Origin: Tulasnella sp. 424
Lineage: Eukaryota; Basidiomycota; Agaricomycetes; Cantharellales; Tulasnellaceae
DNA: 64,000 nt
Reading direction: 5' to 3'
Assembly: GCA_019633425.1 (NCBI GenBank)
Contig: WSUB01000014.1
Span: forward strand, 352,243 to 416,242
This document shows positions 873-26,555 of this stretch, in pieces. A model generated the notes under the pieces. That model saw only the letters and a program-made list of their open reading frames with translations. It did not search any database and was not told the DNA's origin. The position numbers were made by a program, and so were the translations under genes. Position 1 is the first letter of the stretch. Every line of letters begins with the position of its first letter.

Positions 873-1997
873 CTAAGACCACGACGCTTGCTCCGGGCCT
901 GCACCCCAAGAAGAAGTGCCAGCAGGTGCATCTGCTGCCCAGTCGGTTCCACCAGCAGCAGTATCGCCAGGCTCCGCAGACCAGTCCAATCCTGATCACC
1001 GGGTTAAGAGGGACAGAGGAGAGAGAATTTCGTCAGTTTCACGACCCGATGAGAACAGTGCGAAGCGTAGCATGGACTACTTACCTCCCTCCTGAGCGAC
1101 AGCCAATGCACCAGTTGCTTCACCAACAACGTTCCAGTCGGTAGTTCCCTGAGGTTCAGCGGCGGCGTCCTTGGCGGCAAGACCATCCGCCAAGTCCTTT
1201 TCAACCTCATCGGGATCGCGGTAGAAGAACATATCGACCATGATGTTCCAGCCCTCTGGCGTTCTCGGGACAGTACCCTTGAGCCGGAGGACTTCACGGC
1301 ATAGTAACCACCAGACAAGACCGATCGAGTGCTTTCCTTTATTGTTCGCGGGGATAGCAACGTCGACGTGCTTGAGGGGCGCGTCGGTATCGCAGAAAGC
1401 AATAACAGGGATGTTGACGTATGAGGCTTCGCGGATGGCTTGGTGGTCCACTCGCGGATCGGTTACGACAATCAGACGGGGCTCCTTGAATGACCTGGTG
1501 ATGTAGTTGGTGAATGCACCGGGAGTGAATCGACCGGCAATGGCATGTACGCCAGTGTTGGCGGCGAATTTTAGCACGGCACGATGACCGTAGGTTCGGG
1601 AGGAAATGACAACAACATCTTCTGGGGCAATTGGGGCGATAATTCGTGCGGCAAGAACAAGCTTCTCCCACGTCTTGCCAATGTTGATGAGGTGAATGCC
1701 TGCAATATCGCAATCCAGTTACGACTCCAGATCCATCGGTTACGCGAGCGAAACTGACCATCGTCGCGGCGCTTCCATACGTAGGTCTCCATCTGAGACT
1801 CGCACTTCTTGCTACCGATGTGCACTTGAGCCTGAAGCATCTTTGCGATGTCGTCTTCGGTTGGGTTGAAAGCTGCAGGGAGCTTAGAGCCATGAGGGGC
1901 TTGTTGCTGTTTGAAACAATGAGCTCGGAGACAGACGACAGAACGTAGAGATGCTGACCTGGCCCACGGGTAGGGAGGCGAACTTCTTCTGCGACAT
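873..1997 (-). CDS. RPS0: 40S ribosomal protein uS2 (RPS0/RPSA)
   Basis: Structural protein of the small ribosomal subunit, needed for 18S rRNA maturation and 40S stability. Visible family blocks on the minus strand are NPTEDDI near the start, [35 protein letters not shown], then [20 protein letters not shown] and [20 protein letters not shown]. Proposed exons are 1997-1959, 1882-1759, 1699-1085 and 991-873, summing to 298 codons in frame. The last intron (1084-992) matters: reading through 1077 gives a false stop, whereas splicing gives the usual acidic, Trp-containing tail with DWSAEPGD and TDWAADAP, ending at a TAG at 875-873. The first exon (13 codons) is the least certain part, because other ATGs lie between 1883 and 2040. 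It is divergent from the transcription factor at 2278, with 280 bp between the starts. Confidence 0.9.
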
Positions 1998-2277
1998 CTT
2001 CGACGATGATTGGGGTCACTGCAGGCTTCAAGGCCAATAATGTTGATTCTGATCTAGCCTGAGAAACTCAGGGACAAATGAAGCCGTGGGATATTTCGAC
2101 GCTGCGCCTAATGCGATGACCAAGCTAAACCCCGACTGTCTCTCCGAACATCTTCGGCTTCCGATTGCCTTGTCCTAAGCGGTTTCAGCGTTCCACGACT
2201 TCATCCCTCCAGATTATCTTCCATTGGGCCATATCACTCTTCAAGTCGATTTTGTGAAGTTGTAGCCAAATCTTCAA

Positions 2278-5200
2278 ATGCCCAAGGCTGCTTCAGCCCC
2301 CTTAACGGCCACGGCCACCGGAAAAGCTGCCGCGTCAGCTCAGAACGTTCTCAAGCGAAACCAAGTTAGGGATTTTCTGTCCTTTTCAGAGGTCACCTCC
2401 TGATTAGACATCTTTTTTGGACAATCGCAACTAGGCGTGTCACCAAGTAAGTGCGATTCGGGCATTCGCCGAGTTTGAGTTGTGAATAGATCTTCTTATC
2501 ACTCCCTGCCACCACAGTGCCGGAAGAAGAAATTGGTAAGCTTGATCATGTCAAGAACTTTCGAAACCCGGGCTTCTCACAAGTGACTTGACCCAAACAC
2601 CTCATTCGAGCAGAAATGGTAGGTCAATCGTGTTGAACGATCCTCGAGAATGTTTTTTTAAGCCACGTTTCCGCAGCGACGCTCAGCTACCCTGCTCAGC
2701 TTGTATCAAGACTCACTCCTACGCCCTCAAGACACATCCAGCAACGGCTCCAGAGAACCCTGACTGCACGTATGACACCCCAGGTAGTGAGGATCCTGCA
2801 ACCCAAGCGAGGATGCAGGAACTCGAAGCAAAGATCAGTGAGTAACTCCGCAGTTCTCCTATCACCTGGGTCACGAATCGTTCTTTAATACCTCTCTTTA
2901 ATATAAAGAGCTACTTGAGAACAGATTGAAAGTGCAGGATCCTCCTGGTCCAACCCAACGAACACCACCGGTGACAGTGACCGACGCCACCTGGACGACT
3001 CCGACGAGCGGCTCGACCCCAGGCACATTGAGCGGAAGCTCTCCGACTACATCCTCGATCAATCCTCTGACCCCCCTTATGGGAGTTCCTATGTCGGCTG
3101 TTGCGGGTGGCATAGTCGGAATGGCATCGATCAATGGAACAACTCCGCAAACATCCCCACCACTACCGACAGCCGCGCAGATTCAGAGCAGTCCTCTAAC
3201 GGCAAATCATCTGGTACAAGACGTTAATCTCATATTCCAATATTTCCCCGATACCGTCCAAACTCCCGAACAGCGCCATGCAGCTGCGACCAATACTGGG
3301 GTTCCGGGCACAACGACCGAACCCACTCCTAGTCCTCCTACACAGCACCCTCTTCTCAATTTGATCGACCCCCATTGGCCAGAGCACGTACCCAAGCCAG
3401 AACTCTTACACCACCTTGCAGAGACCTTTTTTGCGTGTGTTCCTCATGCGCATCGGGTACTCCATAAACCGACTTTCATGTCGTCGCTGTTACATCCAGC
3501 GTCTTCCTCGAAGTTCCCGTAAGCATATTTGACGCCTCTGTTCAACTAAGCTAACACGGGCTCACCATTTTTTTTAGTTCGACAGCTCTCCTTCATGCTA
3601 TCAGTGCGATTGCCTCGCTCTATACCCCCATCGTGACAGATGGGTCGGAGATAAACCTCATGGACATCGGCCCGGATACACTCTTTCATTCGGCCGTTGC
3701 CGAGAAGCGTATGGTCTACGATAAAAAGCAATGTCCGGACTTCGAAAAAGTGCAGATCGAAGAGGGAGCGTTCGGGATGACCCAAGCATACTACTATCAA
3801 GAGACGTGGTTGACGACTGCTCGTCAGGGTGATCGACTGATGCAGCTAATGCAAGGTAGTTGAACCATCGTAAGGGAGTTGACCTAGAACTGATTATTGG
3901 CCACCAAGCGAATATTATTATTACGTGGTATTATCACAGTGTTGGGCGTGCTGTCGACGTGAGTCGTAGCGCACATCTTAAGCGGTCCTACCACTCTAAC
4001 TTTCTTTTTTGAAGGTGTGGATCTCTATAGGGAATTGCATCCGGACAGCATTGCCTATGGGTGAGCATGGAAAGGGGGTATCTGAAGTGCCCAGGGTATG
4101 CTAAATGATCTGTGACAAGGTTTGAACACTGGACCCCTGTGGACTCCGATAAGCCGGCAACCGGCGCACACACTATCTCTGTTCCCTCATGGCGCAGATG
4201 CGACCGAGAAGGAGACCTTAATGTCAGTTAGCCGTCCTTCCTCGCCGATATCTCTGAGCTTACGGAGCCGGTTTTCACAGAAATCTTTTCTGGATGTGGG
4301 TTAACCTGTGTCTAGCGGCGTATGCACTTAAGTGACACCTGGTTCTAGTGTTTATTGCATGGAACGGCTATACTGCGCTGGTACCGTCTGGCCTCTTTTG
4401 ATGCAGTAAGCAAACCGGTCACGCAGCCTAAGCGCCAACCATCTAATCGCCCCCCCCCCCCGGCGGCAGAGACGAGGATATCAGCCAATATCTTCCGATG
4501 TCCACACACAACATCGCCTATAAGGTCGGTGTCGCGTCTCTAAGCGAAAGGTCATTTGTTGACAGTCTCTATGTAGTATATTCCACCAACGGAAAGGCAA
4601 AGACTCAATAGTCCCAAATGTCTCACAAATCATCCAATCGGCACGACCGACTCATTCTCCTTGTATGTCAAATCCACCGTGCTCCTCGGACGAGTGAAGA
4701 CCTTCAATGGACGCTTCAAGACGAAGTTTGATTCTGGCGCCGTGGGGATCGATCCACGCGAGACCGCTGAATTCCAGATGTTAGATGCGGCCATAACAGC
4801 TTTCAAGTTGAGTATCCCGAAGGAGTATAAAGAACCAATCGGCCCGGACGGAAAGATCGATCCTACTCTGTACCTCGCCCTAGTGATTCCTAACGTGTAG
4901 GTTCTCTTCGTGTTGCTTGGTCCAGTAATCGAGCGCTGATCAAACCCGTCATTACAGAGCTATGCTCCTTCTCCACGACCCACACGCGAACTTGGAATCG
5001 CCCAACTGTCTTTCAGCCGAACGGATGCTGACAGCAGCGAGGGCAATACTTGACTTGATCTACAAGGTAAGCTTTGAAGTGAAGCCCTCATGAATTCTCC
5101 TTCTGACCGTGAAATCGTATTTGGTAGCTTACTGCAACAAGCTTCGATTTGATGCTTTTGGATCATTCTTGCTCGGTGGGTTCGGCTCCGAATTATCAAC

Positions 5201-5616
5201 AGAGCTAAGCATCTGAACTAGTGTATCTGTTCTTCAGTTCTGCTGGTTTGTAGCTGCAACGGCGCTCATCAGGTTCCTCAAGGTGAAAATCCTGCAGGGC
5301 AACGAAGCCGAGACCTTGAAGCTCACTTCCGAAATCCAAGTCATCCGGTGAGTATAATCCACATGATCATCGGAATAACGCTAAGCACCCTGCGCAGCTT
5401 CATGCTTCAGAATCTTGGAGCCCGTACGATCGTTGGTCGTAAGTTCTTCTCCGCATTCTGAAGTTGCTCGTCGCTAATTCGGTTGTCTCAGTGCGCCAAA
5501 ACATGATCCTCGAGGAGATGTACGCAGCCGAAGTTCAACCGCTCATTGACCGAGTTGTATCTCCTCCGTCCGCCGACGAGCTCTCCGCTGCTGCCGGGTT
5601 TTTCGGAATGTTTTAA
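2278..5616 (+). CDS. Zn2Cys6 fungal-specific transcription factor
   Basis: Nuclear DNA-binding regulator with an N-terminal binuclear zinc cluster and a C-terminal fungal transcription-factor (Fungal_trans) homology region. The cluster is assembled from exons 2278-2364, 2435-2446, 2518-2535, 2614-2618 and 2677-2837, giving ACHQCRKKKLKCDAQLPCSAC followed by a final Cys about 20 residues later (DCTYD). That long last loop is typical of an Agaricomycete subfamily. A short coiled coil (MQELEAKIKLLENRL) crosses the next junction to the exon at 2909-3518. From 3578 the middle homology region follows, with HAISAIASLYTP, WYYHSVGRAVD, VWISIGNCIRTALP and DEDISQYLP. It ends with GFFGMF and TAA at 5614-5616. 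Exon borders between about 4060 and 4400 are unclear. Target genes are unknown. It converges on the CoA-transferase gene with 81 bp between stops. Confidence 0.85.
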
Positions 5617-5697
5617 TACCCCGATGGTTTGTCTCTGTTCCGGTTGTAATTGTAGGAAACCCTTAGATCTGTTATTCTATGTAGCGCGGACGGTACC

Positions 5698-8038
5698 CTA
5701 GCTATCCATGACCTTCAAATGCGGTGATACCGTGTAATCAGCACCCGTCTTGCTACGAACTTCCTCCTCTGTCACACCCGGTGCAAGCTCCGTCAAGGTC
5801 ATAGTACCGGAGTGCCGGTCGATGTCGAAGACACACTAGAGGACTGAGTTAGAGCAAAGCCCTTGAGAGAATAGAAACCGAACCCACTAAGTCGGTGATG
5901 ATCTGAGACACGCATCGAACTCCGGTCAACGGTAGATCACAAGTTTTGAGAATCTTGTGTTTTCCGCCCTTTGCTACGTGTTCCATTAGAATGATGACCT
6001 AAAAATCCACGGGATATAAATGCCGATCCAAGCGGTCATCACGGTAGCGGATCTTACTTTCGTTCCTTCAGGATTAGAGACAAGATCCATGGCACCACCC
6101 ATTCCTATCCAAGACAATGTTGACCACATGGACCCTCGAGCGGACGAGACAACGAACCTTTGACCATCTACAAAAATAGTGTCAGGATATTTTCGATCAT
6201 GCACCGTCTAACATACACCCTTACCTTCCGCGGAATCATGAAGTTAGCAAGATCTCCCGCTTGAGACACTTGGAATGCCTGAAACAAGGGTTTAGAGTTC
6301 AGGGTAACGTGTGCTGGTCTGCGGACTTACGCCCAGCATGGCGACGTCGATGTGTCCACCCCTGTAAGAAAGGATGAGCAGTTAGACATCACTCAAGAGA
6401 GAGGACGGAATCAAATGCTATTGCCTTATCATTCCGAAGCTCTCGACGCTGTCGAAGACGGAAGCGCCTGGGAGAAGCGTGACCGTCTCCTTGCCGGCAT
6501 TGATAATGTCACTGACAAGACATAACGTAAGTCGTGCTGCGTTTGGAAGGGAACTTGCAGGGAGACTAACGCATCGACCATGGGTTCTATCGGATACGGA
6601 CCAAATCCAAGGATCCCGTTCTCCGACTGTAAGTGCACCTTGACGCCTTTTGGAACGAAGGACGGTGCGAGCATTGGCATTCCAATCCCTAGGGTCAGGA
6701 TGACACGTCAGATCTGGCTAACCTAGAAAGGCGACGGGTCGATGACCTACCGAGATTAACGTAGAAGCCATCCTTGAGCTCCTTCGCGGCCCGCTTTGCA
6801 ATGCGTTCGCGACGGACGGTGTCTTCGTCCTTTTGAAGATCCTTCGATTCTCCAGAAGCAGAAGATGGGGCTGGAGACGTAGTCCTAAATTCAATCTCCT
6901 TGGGTGCATTCGATTTAACAACGCGGTCGACGTAAATGCCTGGGAGGTGAACGTGTTGCGGGTCGAGACTGCCAGCAGGAACGATTTCGTCGGCCTTGCA
7001 AAAATATATACTTTTAAATTGTGCACAAATATAGGCAAGTTGTTTCGTACCTCGACTATAGTCACTCGTGCTGAGCGAGCCATCGCGCCGGAGAAGTTAT
7101 GCTGAGTGTATCTGAGGAACGTCTTCAACATCTTCGCATCTGAAGAATAGAAGCTAGACGGACCTGAATATGCAATTACCATATTCGTCGGCCTTCCAAA
7201 CTCGGATAATTGCAAAATCTCCGTGTCTAATTTGTCGCTCAAGTTAGCACAGCGCAAGGGCCCGGGGAACTCATGGGTCACATACAGAGCCTCCTCCATA
7301 ATGTAATTCCTCCCGCTAAATTCTCGTACTTCTTTCCGCTTCCCATGAACTTCGATGGCCCCAGAGCCATCTTCCGTGTACTTCACGGGTAATTCCCCAG
7401 ATTCAACAGCCGTTCCATAGCCCGTTGGGGTAAAGAACGCTGGTATCCCAGCTCCTGCTGCACGAATCCGCTCAGCGAGAGTCCCTTGTGGGCATAGTTC
7501 GATCGAGACTTTTCCAGCAAGGTACTGAGACTCGAAATGCTTGTTAGTCCCGATGTAGCTGCAGACTACTTTGGATAGCTGGCCAGTATGGATGAGCTTG
7601 CCTAATGAAGCCGTGATGAGGGACGGAATCCTCTCCGCGGAAGCCACAACTCGCTCTCACCAAGACCTTTCTCTCCGAGTCCAGCATTGTTACTTGCGGC
7701 GGTAAGGCCGCTGACATCAGGTCGCCTCGAAATGGCACCTATTAGCGTGTCGGCGACCCCACACAAACCAAATCCTGGTAAGGCACTCTCGTCAGTCTAA
7801 GCTCTAACGATGTTCGTAGCGACGTCTGCCTCGTACCTCCACTGAGGATTGTACTGCCAGACTTAATGTCTGCAACAGCCTCATCTGCAGAATAGAATAT
7901 CTTCGACTGTCGACGCTCCTTGTTTCCTGGGGCAACCTGTAACGAGGAAGCTGCATGTTGCAGCGTTCGTGCTAGGTACAGCTGAGGACGGCGAGCAGCA
8001 GCACGGTAGGCCAGTAGCGATCGCTTGGGTGCAGTCAT
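5698..8038 (-). CDS. Succinyl-CoA:3-ketoacid CoA-transferase (SCOT), mitochondrial
   Basis: Transfers CoA from succinyl-CoA to acetoacetate, the committing step of ketone-body use, in the mitochondrial matrix. The N-terminus ([20 protein letters not shown]) is basic and looks like a targeting sequence. Family blocks in order are [20 protein letters not shown], then [15 protein letters not shown] after an intron, [20 protein letters not shown], and [20 protein letters not shown]. In the second half [16 protein letters not shown] carries the catalytic Glu of the QSENG motif, then come DVAMLGAFQVS and [19 protein letters not shown]. It ends SPHLKVMDS at a TAG at 5700-5698. Introns of 50-70 nt interrupt it repeatedly. 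It lies directly downstream of a thiolase gene on the same strand, 209 bp away. Confidence 0.9.
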
Positions 8039-18450: not shown

Positions 18451-21400
18451 ATGTCACACTGTCTACCTAAGAGGCGAAATGCTCTCGATGCGACCTTGTC
18501 AAAGCTCGATGCGAAGGAGAAGTCCTTGGGATCCCCGACAAATGCCAGAGCCCAACCTGGTACTCCAACGACACCAGCAATACGGGCTTCCCAGCCTACG
18601 CTGAGCCCAGAAGATACGTTCAAATTGGGAGACTACACTGTCTCTGTAGATGCATTTATCGCATATGGTGAGTGTTGTAACGAAATGAAAAATCAGTGCG
18701 CGCGCACGGTCCCCACTTACCTCGACTCCGCTAGGCTTGAAGCTGGAGACCAACTATGTTGAAAGCTACCAAGTCACAATATGGAGCTCTTCGGGGAAAG
18801 ACTACGAAGGAAAAAAGACGTGCACCCTCAGGAAGATTCCTTTGGCCTCCGCTGCGCTGAAGAAGGCTTGCGAGGACGAGAAACATATTCTGGTATGCTC
18901 GGTGGTTTTTAGCCCGTGGAATGGGAGGTAATATGGCATTCACACAATATCTTAGACGAGATTGGCAGAAAGCGAGCACCCCAACGTCATCCATCTTCTC
19001 GACTGCGCCTTCTCGGACCGTTCCACGCCAAACAATCCGCCATGTTGGGATATATTCTACCTCTTCGCAGACCTCGAGGTTAGTAACCTCTCCAGAATAG
19101 TTGCGGATCACCGGAGAAACCGCACGATGATCGCAGAGGAAGAAATTATTCGAATTGCCATCGACCTTGTCGATACGCTCGCCTTCCTACATGCCTCCAC
19201 ACCTCCGTTACTGCATAGAAATATTCGTCCGAGCAGTATTATCAGAACAAGTTTTGGCGCTTTCAAACTTTCCAGCTTTTTGAGCGCTGCCTTTCCCATG
19301 GCCCCGAACTCCTCATGGGAGGTCGATCAACTTTTGAAGCTGGACATGGGGTGCTACACAGACCCTAAATACCGGTCTCCAGAAATGACCGAGAGGCACG
19401 ACTACAGGAGAAGGGACGTGATTTCATGCACGGCTGAGTCAGGTACGATGGATCTATCGGCCTGTGCACCATCCGCCCGTCTAACCGTCTTTATCCCTCT
19501 ATAGATGTATGGTGCATAGGTATCCTGCTTTACATCATGTGTCACCAGCGACACCCATTTGAGGGGAAAAGCTGTGGGAATATTTTGGAAGCCAGTCTAC
19601 CGCAACGCGATCGGAGACCATACCCTCGGGTGGAACACCTCGTTGGCAAGGATCCTCGACAAACATTCTGAGGTCCAAATCTGACCTTCCCTTCTAGATT
19701 TAATATTCAAAAAGGATCCCATGGCCAGACCTACGGCTCAGGAGCTCCAGACTTCCCTGCGCCAGGCTCTAGAAATACCGCCATTTTTGTACAAGGTATG
19801 CAGATAATGGATCGGTCTGTATAACTTGGTGGCCCTCTAACCTCTCTTCAGGCCCCGCCCTTGGTTTTTTCTCCGGAGACGAAAGAGCTACTCACAATGC
19901 CGCGACAGTCTTATAAATTGGCGGATCACATTGGAAAGGAAACGCCGTTCTGGGACCCTTCCCAGCTACAGCCTCTACCAACTTCCGGCGGTCCAACCAC
20001 AGGTTTAGGCGAGGGAAGTACCTCATCGCGAGATCAAACCTATACCAACCACCAAGGGAAAGACGGTACACTTGAACTGGATGTCAATGCTCCTTCCCTT
20101 CTGCCTCCACCGTCGTACCGTCACAGCCGAAGCAAGTCTGCGTCACCTCGTCTTCCCGTCGCGGGGTTGAATCGGGTCGAATTTTCCGATGGCAAAGACG
20201 GCCTGATCAACATTCCTTCCATTTCTATCTCCCCGTCTGATGAAGCATTTCTATCCGCCGAGGTCCCTAATCCATTGCACTCAGCCCTCTTTGTGCCTGT
20301 GGGGTACACACCAGGACCTGATCAGCTCCGCCCTTTGCAATCGCCGCAGCTACGCCTTGAACGCTCACAAAGCAGCCGAAGGACGAACCGTTCTCACTCG
20401 GATGGGTCACGGCCGCGACCGAACCTTACCTTACAGGTGTTAGAGGAGAATTCGACGTCCGCGCCTAGACGGCCGGCGAACCTATCCTCGACGTTCAATT
20501 CGGAGGATGCTTTGGAGGATGCTGGCTCCAGAGCCGAGGTGAGTGAATGGCAGAATGAATCAAACCGCGCTTTACACTCGGAAAACCGACATCTGGATGA
20601 AAATCTGGCCGGGTTTCAGGTGAAAACAAGTAGCATAAATGGCGGCGAAGATCAGGAACCGGTCGATCAAGAGGGAACAACATCTCCTGACGATGATATT
20701 GGCCATCTGGTTACCATCACATCCCTAGAGGCGGTCTTCGTCAATGGCCGCTTCAGCGATATTTTCGAAGGCATTCACAAGACAATGGGCAGGGTTGCCC
20801 TCAAGCGACCAAGGATTGGGGGAACAGGTGATGAGAAAGATATTATTCGGGTAAGTTATTTCTCGTCCATGTCGGTTCCTAGGAGAATAACCCGTCTACT
20901 CGAAGAGGTTTGAAAGGGAAGGAGCCACTTGGCGCAGACTCGATCATCCACATATATTGAAGTTCCTCGGCACATTCAAGAGCGAAAAGCATATTTACTT
21001 TGTCAGCCCCTTTATCAGGAATGGGACCTTATTGGAGTATGTCAAAGAGCACCACGAGGTCAATCGTGTCAAACTGGTAAGCCTTCGAGCCGATGTAACC
21101 TCCATCCGCGCTTCTGACCGGGTGTATCGCAGTTGTGCGAGACCGCCGACGCTATCCACTACTTGCACCTAAACAAAGTCGTGCATGGAGACATCAAAGC
21201 AAGCAACATCCTTATTAGCGATGAATACCGTGTTCTGCTTTGCGACTTTGGTCTGACAAAGGTCCTGCATTCCAAAACATCTACCGTAATGAAGCGCGCT
21301 GGGACTATCCGATGGCAGAGCCCAGAATTGTGGGACGATGCCGCGAAGACATTCAAATCAGACGTGTACGCATTTTCGATGACTATTGTAGAGGTGGGTA

Positions 21401-21675
21401 ACTCTACGCTACTATTCTCGTGCTCGCATCCCAAATCTAGTTGATAGGTCATTACCGGGGCTCCGCCTTTCTCCCACCTAACCAACGATATGGCCATCCT
21501 AATGGCTGTATATGGCAGACAAGAACGGCCTCAGAAGACTCCTACAGAATTCAATGGCGTATCGTATGAGAATGCTTGGGCGGTGGCTGAAGCTTGCTGG
21601 AAGACAAAACCAGCCGAAAGGATCCGAATTTCGGAGGCGTTCCGCCGGCTACGGAAGGATCCTTCGCTTGTATAA
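18451..21675 (+). CDS. Tandem-kinase protein 1: NAK-like pseudokinase + TKL kinase
   Basis: Predicted signalling protein of roughly 920 residues with eight introns. The N-domain (about residues 60-365) has the order of a Numb-associated (AAK1/ARK) kinase: EHPNVIHLLD, IAIDLVDTLAFLHA, LLHRNIRPSSII, YTDPKYRSPEM, DVWCIGILLYIMCHQRHPFE. However, the catalytic Asp of HRD is Asn (HRN) and DFG reads SSF, so it is probably inactive. A Ser/Pro-rich linker follows. The C-domain (about 650-915) keeps VALKRPR, HGDIKASNIL, CDFGLTKVL and RWQSPEL, as expected of an active TKL-type kinase. The start at 18451 was chosen because MSHCLPKRRNALDAT aligns with the second copy at its ALDAT. One intron (19646-19697) has a GC donor. 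It ends RLRKDPSLV, TAA. Ligand, substrate and cell location are unknown. Confidence 0.82.
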
Positions 21676-21754
21676 GTCGATATGGTTGCATTTTATCCGA
21701 ATCAATGATTGCTTTCCCTTTCCCGCGGAGTCGTGCCGGGTTGGCTCCGGGGAC

Positions 21755-21830
21755 GTCAACATGGTATCTGCTCTGACCGCCGGCTATGCTCCTGTTACTG
21801 CATTTGCCCGGCCCAACAAAAACGGCCAAA
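21755..21830 (+). pseudogene. Small PIG-U exon fragment
   Basis: About 60-75 nt just after the first kinase stop resemble 28262-28325 inside intact PIG-U. The shared core is ACCGCCGG, then TGCTCCTGTTACT, then CCGGCCCA. It overlaps the same part of PIG-U as the end of the pseudogene at 16604-17420, so it is a separate copy and not its continuation. It is too short to code. It suggests that the duplicated unit was kinase plus adjoining PIG-U. Confidence 0.6.
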
Positions 21831-22267
21831 CAAGAGCTTTCTGTCCATAATCAACTGGTGCTCTTGACCTCCTATGGTCCCGTATTGGAGCCCTCCTGGA
21901 AGCCGACGAACGACTCAGATGAATAAAAGAACGCTGCCGTCGTGGGCGCTTAGTTATAAATTATGTAATTCTGCTACAATACCCAACTGTCGAAAGCGAT
22001 TCCACGTATATTATTGGGGGTTGGAAGTCGTAAGGCGGCCTCATTCGAGCTGCCTCTCTGTGCATGTTTCTTCTCCTCGCTCTTTGCGCGTATGGTGGGG
22101 ATATCTAACTAGCCTGAGTTATGGACCTTTATGTCCGTAACCTCCGTCGAAACATGATTGGTCAACGAGAATTCGAGGCAAATATCCCCTCAACCAATCA
22201 TATCGCTCTACGGACCCTTGGTCCCTCAGGGCCTGGGTACAAGGCAGACCTATCCGAGGCCGTGCCC

Positions 22268-22390
22268 GAATGGTAGTACAGCATGTTCCGAACAAGCTGG
22301 AACCCCGCCCCCGTGACTATTTGTCACGCTGAAAAGACGATGCACGCTCATCTCTTCCTCGCTCGATTCACGGTTACATCGCTCAAGTCA
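22268..22390 (+). repeat. Left arm of an inverted repeat
   Basis: The reverse complement of this arm resembles 22872-22992. Shared blocks are CGTGACAAATAGTCAC, TTCCAG...TTGTTC, GAAACA or GAACAT, and GCTGTAC. The interior of about 480 bp shows no transposase. It may be a non-autonomous element (MITE-like) or a palindromic regulatory region. Confidence 0.6.
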
Positions 22391-22871
22391 AACTAGCACA
22401 ACTTAGACCGATATTTTATAGTAGAGTATAGGCTGGAATGCCTCTGACCATGCATGCCCAAGAGTGCCTTCCTCCGTAGTTCCACTTGTTCTGGAGGTAC
22501 TATGAAGAGTATAGGGACTCAAGTATTCTTAGAGTGTACAATAGAAGTATTTCCAGTAGCTTGAGTAGCTAATAGGGTCAGTCTGGGATTGGTCCACCCA
22601 GTCCTCCGAGCCCCTAGCCAATGTGAGAGTAACTTTGGGCATTATATATAATATGTTTGGATGGTTTAGATTTAGAGTACGTGTAGCCAGGGATCCCGGC
22701 ATTCCTGTTACACTCCCTGAGAGGGCATGGCACGGTGGATGTTGTGATCTGGACCGTCCACACGAACTTACTAAAATCGCATCAACGCGAGCAAAAAAAG
22801 CACTTGTTTCTTGGTAATAGAGTATCTAATGACTGAATTATGTATATTGAAATAGCACGACGGAGGGAAAC

Positions 22872-22992
22872 GTCATTGGAGCGAGGGAGAGGTTAACAGG
22901 GGATCGTGATTTCAACGTGACAAATAGTCACAGCGGGGTGGGGCTCATGGGCGTGCGGGATTCCAGTTGTTCAGAAACAGGCTGTACATATG
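22872..22992 (-). repeat. Right arm of an inverted repeat
   Basis: Partner of the arm at 22268-22390. The 15-nt core GTGACAAATAGTCAC is itself palindromic (a GTGAC/GTCAC stem around AAATA), so each arm could also bind a dimeric protein. It lies about 250-370 bp upstream of the second kinase start. Confidence 0.6.
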
Positions 22993-23243
22993 CCGGTTAT
23001 TGCGTCAGGGAATAGAACGCCACAAAGGATGGAAACATCGATTGTTCTATCTATAATAGGCCTCCTTCCATCCGTCGCCAGGAGCCGAAAGAGTCACTAC
23101 TGTATCAGATCCTGCAGGTGTAAGCAAACGTTCGAGGGTATATATAAAGACTAGGCATCAAATGCGAAGCCTCAAGACGAACGGACGCTCCACTACTGGC
23201 TGTCCATAACACCTCATCCACTACCCTGAAGGATCTCCCAGGC

Positions 23244-26200
23244 ATGCCATTCAAACTTTCTTTCCTTTGGAGTGCTCTAGATGCAACTCCCCCGGAGAGT
23301 CGGGGAGTCGGGAAGCCGTCCCCGACATCAACTCTGTCTCTGTCTACCCAGCTGCGGACACAACCCAACACCCCAACCACGCCGGGGATACCAATTCCCT
23401 CGCCCACGATCAGTCCCCAGCAAGATCCTTTCATAGTGGGAGATTACCTTGTCCATCCTGGCAAACCCCTTGATGGTGAGTGTCACGAATATTGGAGATC
23501 GGGGGACCTTCCTCTTCTGACCTAGTCGAGCGCTCTAGGAATTAAATTAAAGGACTATTTTGCCGAAACTTACAAAGCTAAAGCGTCGAAACGCTTTGGG
23601 AAAGACGATGAACCCAAGATCTGCACGCTTAAAAAGATTCCTTTGGCCACTGCCGTGCAGAAAAAGGCTTGTGAGGACGAAATACAGGTTTTGGTACGCT
23701 CTAGCTATTCCCGTTCTAGGAATCCGGACGGAGGGTTCTCACAATTTATTATCTTCTTTTGTCCTCCTCCCCCCTCCAAAGTCGGAGCTAGCGGAAGGCC
23801 GGCACCCCACCACCTTCCATCTACTTGACTATACGATCTTGGAGCAGCCTGACGAGAATGGTCATCGTTGGGATATATTCTATCTCTTCTCGGACCTGGA
23901 GATAGGGAACCTCTCACGAATGCTTGCGGAGCATCGCAGGGATGGTACGATGATCGCAGAAGGAGACGTCATTCGAATCGCGATTGACCTCGTAGATGCA
24001 TTGACCTTCTTGCACGGCTGCCAGCCTCCGTTGCTCCACAGAAATATTCGTCCAAGCAGCGTCATTCAAACAAGCTCTGGTGTCTTCAAGTTTTCTAGTT
24101 TTCTGAGCGCGGGCTTCCGCAAGGCCTCGAACCTCTTGGCCGACCACCTTGTAGCAGAGGACCTGGAATGCTACACAGATCCGAGATATCATTCGCCTGA
24201 AATGATTGGTGAAGAAACACAGCTAGGGAGAAGCCCGGGTGAATGCACAGCCGAATCAGGTGCCGTGACTGCCGTGGACCCATTGATAGGGAATGATCTG
24301 ACACGTACACTCGTCGAATGGCGTTTAATTTTTTCCATAGATATATGGTGTATTGGCATCCTGCTTTACATCATGTGTTACCAACGACATCCATTTGAAC
24401 CAGGTGGCGGTGGAAACATTTTGGAAGCCAGCCTACCCAAACGCAGTGATCGCGCCCGGGCCTTGTACCCAAGGGTCGAACCCTTCTTCGGCAAGCGTGC
24501 TCTATCAACACCGCGAGTTGCAGATCTCACCTCAGCCTGCAGATCTCATATTTGTCCGGGATCCGAAAGCCAGACCCACGGCTAAGCTGCTCCGGGCGGC
24601 CCTTCGCCATGTTCTGCAAATTCGGCTTCCTCCGGACAATGTAAGTCATGATCAGTATCCCGTGACTATGTTCCTAGACAATCTTTCTTCAGGTTCCGCC
24701 GATTAATTTTTCCGAAACAACGATAAACCTACTCAACATCCCGCGGCAGTCATATAAGCGGACTGATCTCGTCAGACAAGGGTCCTCCTCCCGGAACCCG
24801 CACGAACTCCGGGTACCGTTTTGGTCACCTGACGACCAATCAATCATGGAGCGGAAAGGAAGTACCTCTTCGCGAAATCGAGCATCCTCCAATAAGCAAA
24901 GGAAAGATGGTGGTTATTATAATAACGTTCCCCTCCTCTCCCCCCCGCCGCCTTCCTCCCACCATCGAAGCAAGTCCGAATCACGCCACCCGACTGTGAA
25001 GTTCAATTCAGTCAAACGCTCTGACGACAAAGACGGCTCCGGTAACGTCCCAACGATTTTTATCGAGGGAGCAGGCGGAGAACCTCCTTCCGGGAGCCTT
25101 AGCCAGTCGACAGCCGTCCCGCCAAGGCCTTCCCATCCTTACCCTTCATTGTCAGTCCCGCCGAGTCCAATACGATCGTCAAGGCATACTCGCTCTCATT
25201 CGGATGGAGCCCATCCACCCCCCGATCACGCTTTCGCGGCTCTTCGAGTGGCCCAGAACTCTAAAAAGAATGACTCGGCTTACCTCAGTGCGGATAGGTC
25301 CCCGTCAACGCAGATAAGCCGACCAGTCGAATTACCACTCACTTCCGCGTCCTTGGATTGTACTAAACCCGACACAAGGATCGATTCGGACGACATACAG
25401 GACCAACCAGGTCAATCAAACGGGGCTCTACGGTTGGAAACTGGATTGATAGGTGAGGGTAAGGCTTTGCCTCCGATACCGCCAGACGAGAGTCCCGACA
25501 TCCCCGGGCCGGAACAAGCGGCGCAAGCGGAAACATCATCTCCCACCGACGATATTGGTCTTTATGTCACCATTAAATCCTTAGACCCGATCTGTACCAT
25601 TGGCCACTTCGGCGACATTCTTGAAGGCGTCCACAAGACGGTCGGCAAGGTTGCTCTCAAGCGACCGAGAATGGGGACCACTGACGACGACGAGAAAGAT
25701 ACCATTCGGGTAAGCTGCCCTCCACTGGTGTTAAATGCGTAACCAAATGACGCATCTCCTCGCAGAGGTTTAAAAGGGAAGGTGACAATTGGCGGGGTTT
25801 CGATCATCCTCGTATCTTGAAGTTCCTCGGTACATTCGAGCGGGGAAACCATATTTACTTTGTCAGCCCGTTCATAAACAACGGAAATATATTGGGGTAC
25901 GTCAAAGGACACGCAGATGTCAATCGCGTCAGATTGGTAAGTAATTGGGGTTTACCAAGCATTTGAGAGATACTTCATGGTTGAACACTCATGTGATACA
26001 TTGCAGTTATGCGAGACGGCGGATGCGATCGACTATCTGCATAAAAAGGAAATTGTTCACGGAGACATCAAAGCGAGCAACATTCTTGTTAACGATGACA
26101 CCCATGTTCAGCTCTGCGACTTCGGCCTAACGAAGGTCCTGCATTCAAGAACCTCCACCATGATGAAAGGTGCTGGAACCGTCAGATGGCAGAGCCCAGA

Positions 26201-26555
26201 ATTATGGGAAAATGCCCCCAGGACACTTGAGTCTGATGTATACGCCTTCGCTATGACTATTGCGGAGGTAGCGCACTTAACGCAGCTCTGATCGTCCTTG
26301 AACCTTCTGACCGACGCCCACTTCTAGGTCATCACGGGCGATTTCCCTTTCCCTGATATCAAAAACGAAATAGCCATCGTGTTAGCCGTGCGAGAGGAAG
26401 ATAAACGGCCCGAGATGGATCCCAAAGAATTTAACGGGGTATCATACGAGAACGTTTGGAACGTGGCCGAAGCCTGCTGGAAGAAGGAGCCAGGAGCTAG
26501 GATATCAATTTCGGAGGCGTTCAGTCGGCTTCAGGCAGATCCTTCTCTCTTGTAG
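23244..26555 (+). CDS. Tandem-kinase protein 2: NAK-like pseudokinase + TKL kinase
   Basis: Paralogue of the gene at 18451 with the same layout and similar length (about 920 residues). The start gives MPFKLSFLWSALDATPPESR. The N-domain shows ICTLKKIPLA, RWDIFYLFSDLEIGNLSRML, LLHRNIRPSSVI, KFSSF in place of DFG, YTDPRYHSPEM and DIWCIGILLYIMCYQRHPFE. The same catalytic residues are lost as in copy 1, so loss came before duplication. The intron at 24491-24542 again has a GC donor and is again 52 nt. The linker is rich in Ser and Pro and holds KALPPIPPDESP. The C-domain keeps VALKRPR, IVHGDIKASNILV, LCDFGLTKVL and VRWQSPELW, followed by DVYAFAMTIAEV. The TAG is at 26553-26555. No in-frame stop is left once introns are removed, so both copies look functional. 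Confidence 0.82.

Follow-up and report, generated by a model that had tools for sequence, protein, structure and literature searches.

Tandem genes of Tulasnella sp. 424 predicted to join a NAK-derived pseudokinase to a TKL-type kinase

Results

Gene and domain structure

Our analysis of a 64,000 nucleotide stretch of Tulasnella sp. 424 DNA (the window) identified two tandem genes on the plus strand, each with nine exons and a final model without internal stop codons. The extent given in the first-pass annotation was recovered exactly, since gene 1 opens with its start codon at 18451 and the stop codon of gene 2 ends at 26555. Gene 1 (18451..21675) corresponds to FRC04_002356 (P0003) and its splice model, with exons at 18451-18667, 18735-18892, 18956-19442, 19505-19645, 19698-19795, 19852-20850, 20906-21076, 21133-21393 and 21448-21675, encodes 919 aa. 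Gene 2 (23244..26555) corresponds to FRC04_002357 (P0002) and its splice model, with exons at 23244-23475, 23539-23693, 23782-24259, 24341-24490, 24543-24640, 24693-25709, 25766-25936, 26007-26267 and 26328-26555, encodes 929 aa. Both are annotated as hypothetical proteins of Tulasnella sp. 424. The NCBI models (P0003, 826 aa; P0002, 891 aa) omit or misread exons, including the region of intron 4, and judged against our exon models both appear to be mis-spliced.

Each gene is predicted to encode a NAK-type pseudokinase, a Ser/Pro-rich linker and a TKL-type kinase, all on the plus strand and with domain edges set by eye. The pseudokinase spans 18619..19789 in gene 1 (about aa 57-365) and 23427..24634 in gene 2 (about aa 62-369). 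In gene 1 its Gly-rich loop is degenerate, the VAIK Lys is replaced by Arg, HRDLKxxN by HRNIRPSS and DFG by SSF, and SPE and DVWCIG are retained. The gene 2 domain has kept the VAIK-type Lys and shows a degenerate Gly-rich loop, HRNIRPSS and SSF. The changes from HRD to HRN and from DFG to SSF had been noticed beforehand in both genes, and the Arg of gene 1 can now be added, as can three more loci in the genome. The linker lies at 19852..20691 in gene 1, within a single open exon, and at 24693..25547 in gene 2; at about 275-280 aa in both genes, it agrees with the linker originally proposed between the domains. The TKL-type kinase follows at 20692..21675 and 25548..26555, and carries VALKRPR, HGDIKASN, DFG and SPE in both genes, so that the intact Lys, HGD and DFG ascribed to it earlier are indeed there.

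In both genes exon 6 contains the linker together with the N-lobe of the TKL domain, in frame with the pseudokinase exons, and each gene would therefore encode one fused protein consisting of a dead NAK, a flexible linker and a TKL kinase. NCBI likewise predicts a single protein for each gene and for P0004, a relative from Tulasnella sp. 425.

Among ten neighbouring ORFs scanned (window 1077-7656 and 39198-62132), seven had a Pfam match, namely ribosomal S2, CoA transferase, primase large subunit, zinc dehydrogenase, FAM210, thymidylate synthase and HAD hydrolase, and three had none.

Related loci

Two genome searches with different pseudokinase queries ranked the same six NAK-like loci at the top. 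Two of these are the window genes, contig C84 has two more, C139 has one, and a canonical one is on C126. Three fusion loci thus lie outside the window in the same genome, and each of the five pseudokinases (5/5) is followed on its own strand by a TKL domain. One C84 locus (C84a, or L021; C84:43500-52000) contains three kinase domains in one gene, in the order NAK pseudokinase, TKL domain with HGN and DFE, and TKL domain with HGD and DFG. P0004 is a close relative of this gene. At the second C84 locus (C84b) the middle TKL domain is reduced to a remnant. The length of the linker varies among the paralogues.

Motifs of the gene 1 linker include LLTMPRQSY, RSKS and RSHSDG. The blocks LLxxPRQSYK, GSTSSR, RSKS and RSHSDG are common to the linkers of both window genes and may represent phosphorylation sites; a similar MPRRxY block is also seen in the C84 and C139 copies.

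A homologue search with the pseudokinase part of gene 2 returned three proteins, all from Tulasnella, and the linker exon as query returned one metagenome protein that resembles the TKL N-lobe. Bacterial and other kinases made up many of the 85 matches of an alignment search, which also gave two metagenome relatives of gene 2 with HRN and SSF (P0005 and P0006) and the canonical NAKs P0007-P0009. P0004 was absent from these matches although its N-terminal part was itself a query row; the protein searches evidently miss true members, so that absence outside Tulasnella cannot be read from them. An AlphaFold model of P0004 from a 5-row alignment had a mean pLDDT of 33 and was not interpretable, and in a deeper 62-row alignment the added kinases fell on the middle domain.

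A narrow search of the open-access literature, in which subscription journals are mostly absent, found no fungal NAK-TKL fusion by title or abstract opening. This is in line with the initial impression that no such fungal family had been described, and as far as the search reaches the family appears to be undescribed.

Intron 4

In both genes seven of eight introns are GT-AG. For intron 4 we prefer an inferred GC-AG reading, which places it at 19646..19697 in gene 1 (GCAAGG...CTAG, 52 nt, with an apparent stop inside) and at 24491..24542 in gene 2 (GCAAGC...GCAG, 52 nt), both on the plus strand. GT-AG introns were considered for both genes. One choice in gene 1 keeps a TGA within the reading frame; a second (19574-19697, 124 nt) removes it at the cost of part of the C-lobe. 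In gene 2 a GT-AG intron at 24404-24446 gives an open frame, yet the helix G-H region is then read in a different frame. These readings were rejected because L021, L023 (the C139 locus) and the canonical L024 (on C126) have a GT-donor intron at the same position and in the same phase, and because P0004 has the exon frame of the GC-AG reading. The intron of the paralogues and the canonical NAK, together with the frame of P0004, also speaks against a nonsense mutation in gene 1. The second intron of L023 may use another GC donor (GCAAGT). Intron 4 suggests how a non-canonical intron may lead public annotation to garble a conserved kinase helix.

The first domain as a putative NAK-derived pseudokinase

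The NAK-like character claimed for the first domain was borne out by a phmmer comparison of gene 2 with PDB sequences. AAK1 (E 1.7e-17), BMP2K and GAK lead among the best 60 of 184 matches, in which the NAK matches range from 1.7e-17 to about 1e-12 and are followed by Nek7 at about 2e-11 to 1e-9. Pfam returned only generic kinase-type models for gene 2. The homologue search with gene 2, its Pfam scan and the phmmer run of its first domain used an earlier GT-AG model of the gene, which differs only in the helix G-H region.

When 12 rows were placed in a tree, the five pseudokinases (genes 1 and 2, C84b, C139, and P0004 as substitute for C84a) fell into a single clade (100/100), which joined four canonical fungal NAKs (100/99) apart from three TKL/STE rows. 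The canonical NAK of the same genome, L024, has HRD and DFG. Compared by eye, intron positions and phases (4/4) are common to L024, genes 1 and 2 and L021. One intron, where helix C ends, is in phase 0, and three are in phase 1, at the Gly-rich loop, in the opening Asp of helix F and in the region of helix H. From the best solved relatives, the tree and the four common introns we infer that the pseudokinase is derived from the NAK (Ark1/Prk1) lineage. Introns and tree further support the view that one duplicated Ark/Prk-type gene would have given rise to the dead NAK.

None of the five pseudokinases has the catalytic Asn, the Lys of the catalytic loop, or the Asp or Gly of DFG. Arg replaces the VAIK Lys in four of the five, gene 2 alone having Lys, and Asn replaces the HRD Asp in three. 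Without the intact catalytic residues found in the NAK lineage, the first domain is predicted to be a pseudokinase and not an active NAK. All five (5/5) retain the Glu of helix C, the PE of APE, the D-W-G of helix F and a C-terminal Arg. Out of 96 residues invariant in the four canonical NAKs, each pseudokinase retains 40 to 46; 24 are retained in all five and 35 are gone from all five. The C139 domain sequence behind these counts, the alignment search and the tree probably contains five extra residues at its first junction. Judged by its residues, the pseudokinase has kept part of its scaffold, while its active site is destroyed.

The second domain and the TKL expansion

When the second domain of gene 2 was compared in the same way, EGFR and ABL1 led the best 60 of 1541 matches, followed by CTR1 (TKL) and PDK1 (AGC), both at about 2e-23; by sequence the domain is of TK/TKL type. 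With Lys, catalytic Asp (HGD) and DFG all present in both genes, this TKL kinase is probably active.

The TKL halves are part of a wider non-RD TKL expansion. The genome contains 152 PF07714 matches, counted exon by exon and belonging to several kinase groups, a figure that is not a gene count. TKL loci were drawn mainly from 40 regions chosen among these matches, some of which are the fusion loci themselves. Nine loci were left out beforehand as duplicates (L030, L049, L053, L059, L065, L067) or as members of other kinase groups (L002, L056, L063). Of 45 exon-8 matches, four under 140 aa were dropped (L048_1454, L033, L035, L005_1753), which left a tree of 41 rows. Gly, Ser or Ala precedes the catalytic Asp/Asn in 41/41 rows, which marks the set as non-RD, and the Asp itself is retained in 36/41.

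The fusion TKL domains do not form a clade of their own in this tree. All six fall inside one clade of 17 rows (97/99), alongside 11 rows without a NAK tie, and the C139 TKL domain is closest to a TKL domain on C38 (99/96, 81% identity) that had no NAK match in either genome search and whose N-lobe looks incomplete. TKL halves may thus have been lost, gained or swapped. As 10 of 38 inner branches are open, the TKL side may reflect a single fusion or repeated ones.

Two other TKL arrangements were seen in the genome. Near the start of contig C193 (L070, 1-2000) two TKL domains are fused in one exon, the first with HGN and the second with a broken HGD region. On contig C399 (63363-77553) six TKL-type kinase matches lie on one strand, spaced roughly 2-3 kb apart.

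Selection between copies

Between genes 1 and 2 the Nei-Gojobori dN/dS was 0.15 for pseudokinase exon 3, 0.36 for the linker and 0.08 for TKL exon 8; dS was 1.6-2.0 and near saturation, so these ratios are rough and only their direction (<1) is safe. In the only close pair, C84a and C84b, the pseudokinase exon had a ratio of 0.36 and the TKL exon one of 0.20. Most other pairs had a saturated dS and gave no ratio; the pseudokinase dN/dS was below 1 in all pairs with a computable ratio.

Discussion

Comparison with known kinase systems

The predicted arrangement resembles that of animal JAKs and of the tandem-kinase immune proteins of plants, but differs in origin. JAKs carry N-terminal FERM and SH2-like domains, then a pseudokinase and then an active kinase. 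The likeness to JAK JH2-JH1 drawn in the first-pass annotation holds for the domain order only, a pseudokinase standing N-terminal to an active kinase. It fails for the linker of about 275-280 aa, for the origin of the halves in different kinase families and for the three-kinase paralogue; moreover, only about 60 aa precede the pseudokinase, and no FERM or SH2-like domains were found in the Pfam scan of gene 2. That the linker is long and varies between paralogues argues against a fixed JAK-like interface. In Gcn2 the pseudokinase binds and activates the adjacent kinase domain (PMC4014428). A pseudokinase beside a kinase is common to both systems; the differences are the NAK and TKL halves and the lack of RWD or HisRS-like domains in the gene 2 Pfam scan.

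Plant tandem-kinase proteins (TKPs) such as WTK1/Yr15 and RPG1 also have a kinase and a pseudokinase in one protein, with a non-RD kinase. According to one survey, 40 of 92 are fusions of different kinase families or subfamilies, and the first kinase of WTK1 is non-RD (PMC6170490). This likeness, which had also been pointed out from the start, fits better than that to JAK, given the linker of about 275 aa, the halves from different families and the three-kinase paralogue. The plant proteins come from a different kingdom and from different families, such as WAK and RLCK, and in WTK1 the kinase comes first. A resistance role has been shown for TKPs; an immune role of the present fusions would be hypothetical.

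The fungal NAKs Ark1/Prk1 (An-Prk1) resemble the first domain in sequence, place in the tree and intron positions, and differ in that here the catalytic residues are gone and a linker and TKL kinase stand in place of the tail. TKL-type or TK-related kinases occur in numbers in fungi, as reported for the Laccaria TKLs and the FslK lineage (PMC2838846, PMC3937382). The present TKL-type kinases resemble them in number; an extra domain is reported in 16 of 241 FslK members, most being without one (PMC3937382).

Possible functions

The reading to which we give most weight, and which we hold to be moderately likely, is that the dead NAK docks to or regulates a non-RD, probably active TKL kinase through a flexible linker within one protein. 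The dead NAK would then be a docking and regulatory module, whose retained C-lobe may bind the TKL domain of the same protein or else a NAK partner; this binding could place, restrain or switch on the TKL kinase. The effect on the TKL kinase could be inhibitory or activating. In favour of this reading are the retained scaffold, the position of all five copies before a TKL domain, the dN/dS values below 1 between genes 1 and 2 and the precedent of Gcn2, with JAKs and plant TKPs as further parallels. Against it count the TKL halves, which are not one clade. Since 35 of the 96 canonical invariant residues are gone in all five copies, NAK partners may no longer bind. The autoregulated signalling or non-self response suggested in the first-pass annotation would be hypothetical.

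Next in rank, and in our view unlikely, is that the dead NAK is a targeting tag only, which uses NAK-type surfaces to bring its TKL partner to sites of endocytosis or actin and exerts no allosteric control. The PRK1/ARK1 kinase has an endocytic role, and what localises Ark/Prk may reside in the C-terminal tail. A tail of this kind is missing from the present genes, and the 35 lost residues also count against a tag of NAK type; the retained C-lobe scaffold, the long and flexible linker and the place of the PRK1/ARK1 kinase among fungal NAKs (PMC3591445) speak for such a tag. We are more doubtful still about an integrated decoy or non-self sensor, as proposed for plant TKPs, in which the dead NAK mimics Ark1/Prk1, a foreign NAK-acting protein binds it and the TKL kinase signals. 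A fusion of different families with one dead and one non-RD kinase is found in WTK1 as well (PMC6170490), the second kinase of Lr9, together with its vWA part, has been hypothesised to be an integrated decoy (PMC10260399), and the fusion loci are multi-copy, diverging and partly tandem. Yet the sign of an arms race is absent, as the pseudokinase dN/dS, taken over whole exons, is below 1 in every computable pair, and the neighbour ORFs with a Pfam match (7/10 scanned) belong to everyday metabolism, the ribosome or replication.

The fusions might instead be decaying by-products of the TKL expansion, with a chance duplication having set a dead NAK before a TKL kinase and the copies drifting without function. 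The remnant of a middle TKL domain in C84b and the partial or broken TKL copies on C38 and C193 would suit such a history, which we nevertheless think improbable: neither window gene is interrupted by a stop across its nine exons, dN/dS between them is below 1 in each of the three parts compared, the same losses are common to 5/5 copies and scaffold residues are retained in 5/5. Least credible, to a degree that we would discount it almost entirely, is that at each locus two adjacent genes, one for a dead NAK and then one for a TKL kinase, were wrongly joined. The joins do depend on inferred introns, one of them GC-AG, but in both genes an open frame continuous with the pseudokinase extends through the linker exon as far as the TKL N-lobe, the other loci have the same order, and P0004 was predicted as one protein in a second strain.

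Docking or regulation of the TKL kinase by the dead NAK is thus placed before a pure targeting tag, and this before a decoy or non-self sensor. In a more speculative vein, to which we assign a low probability, fungal tandem-kinase sensors convergent with plant TKPs may have evolved in Tulasnella, the dead NAK serving as a bait or ligand-binding module that would make the non-RD TKL kinase respond to proteins of plants, bacteria or non-self fungi.

Proteins that combine a pseudokinase and a kinase are already known from animals (JAK), from yeast to mammals (Gcn2) and from plant immunity (TKPs). A fungal set built from two kinase families, and including a variant with two degenerate domains before one live domain, would provide an independent case for the question of why evolution repeatedly places a dead kinase beside a live one.
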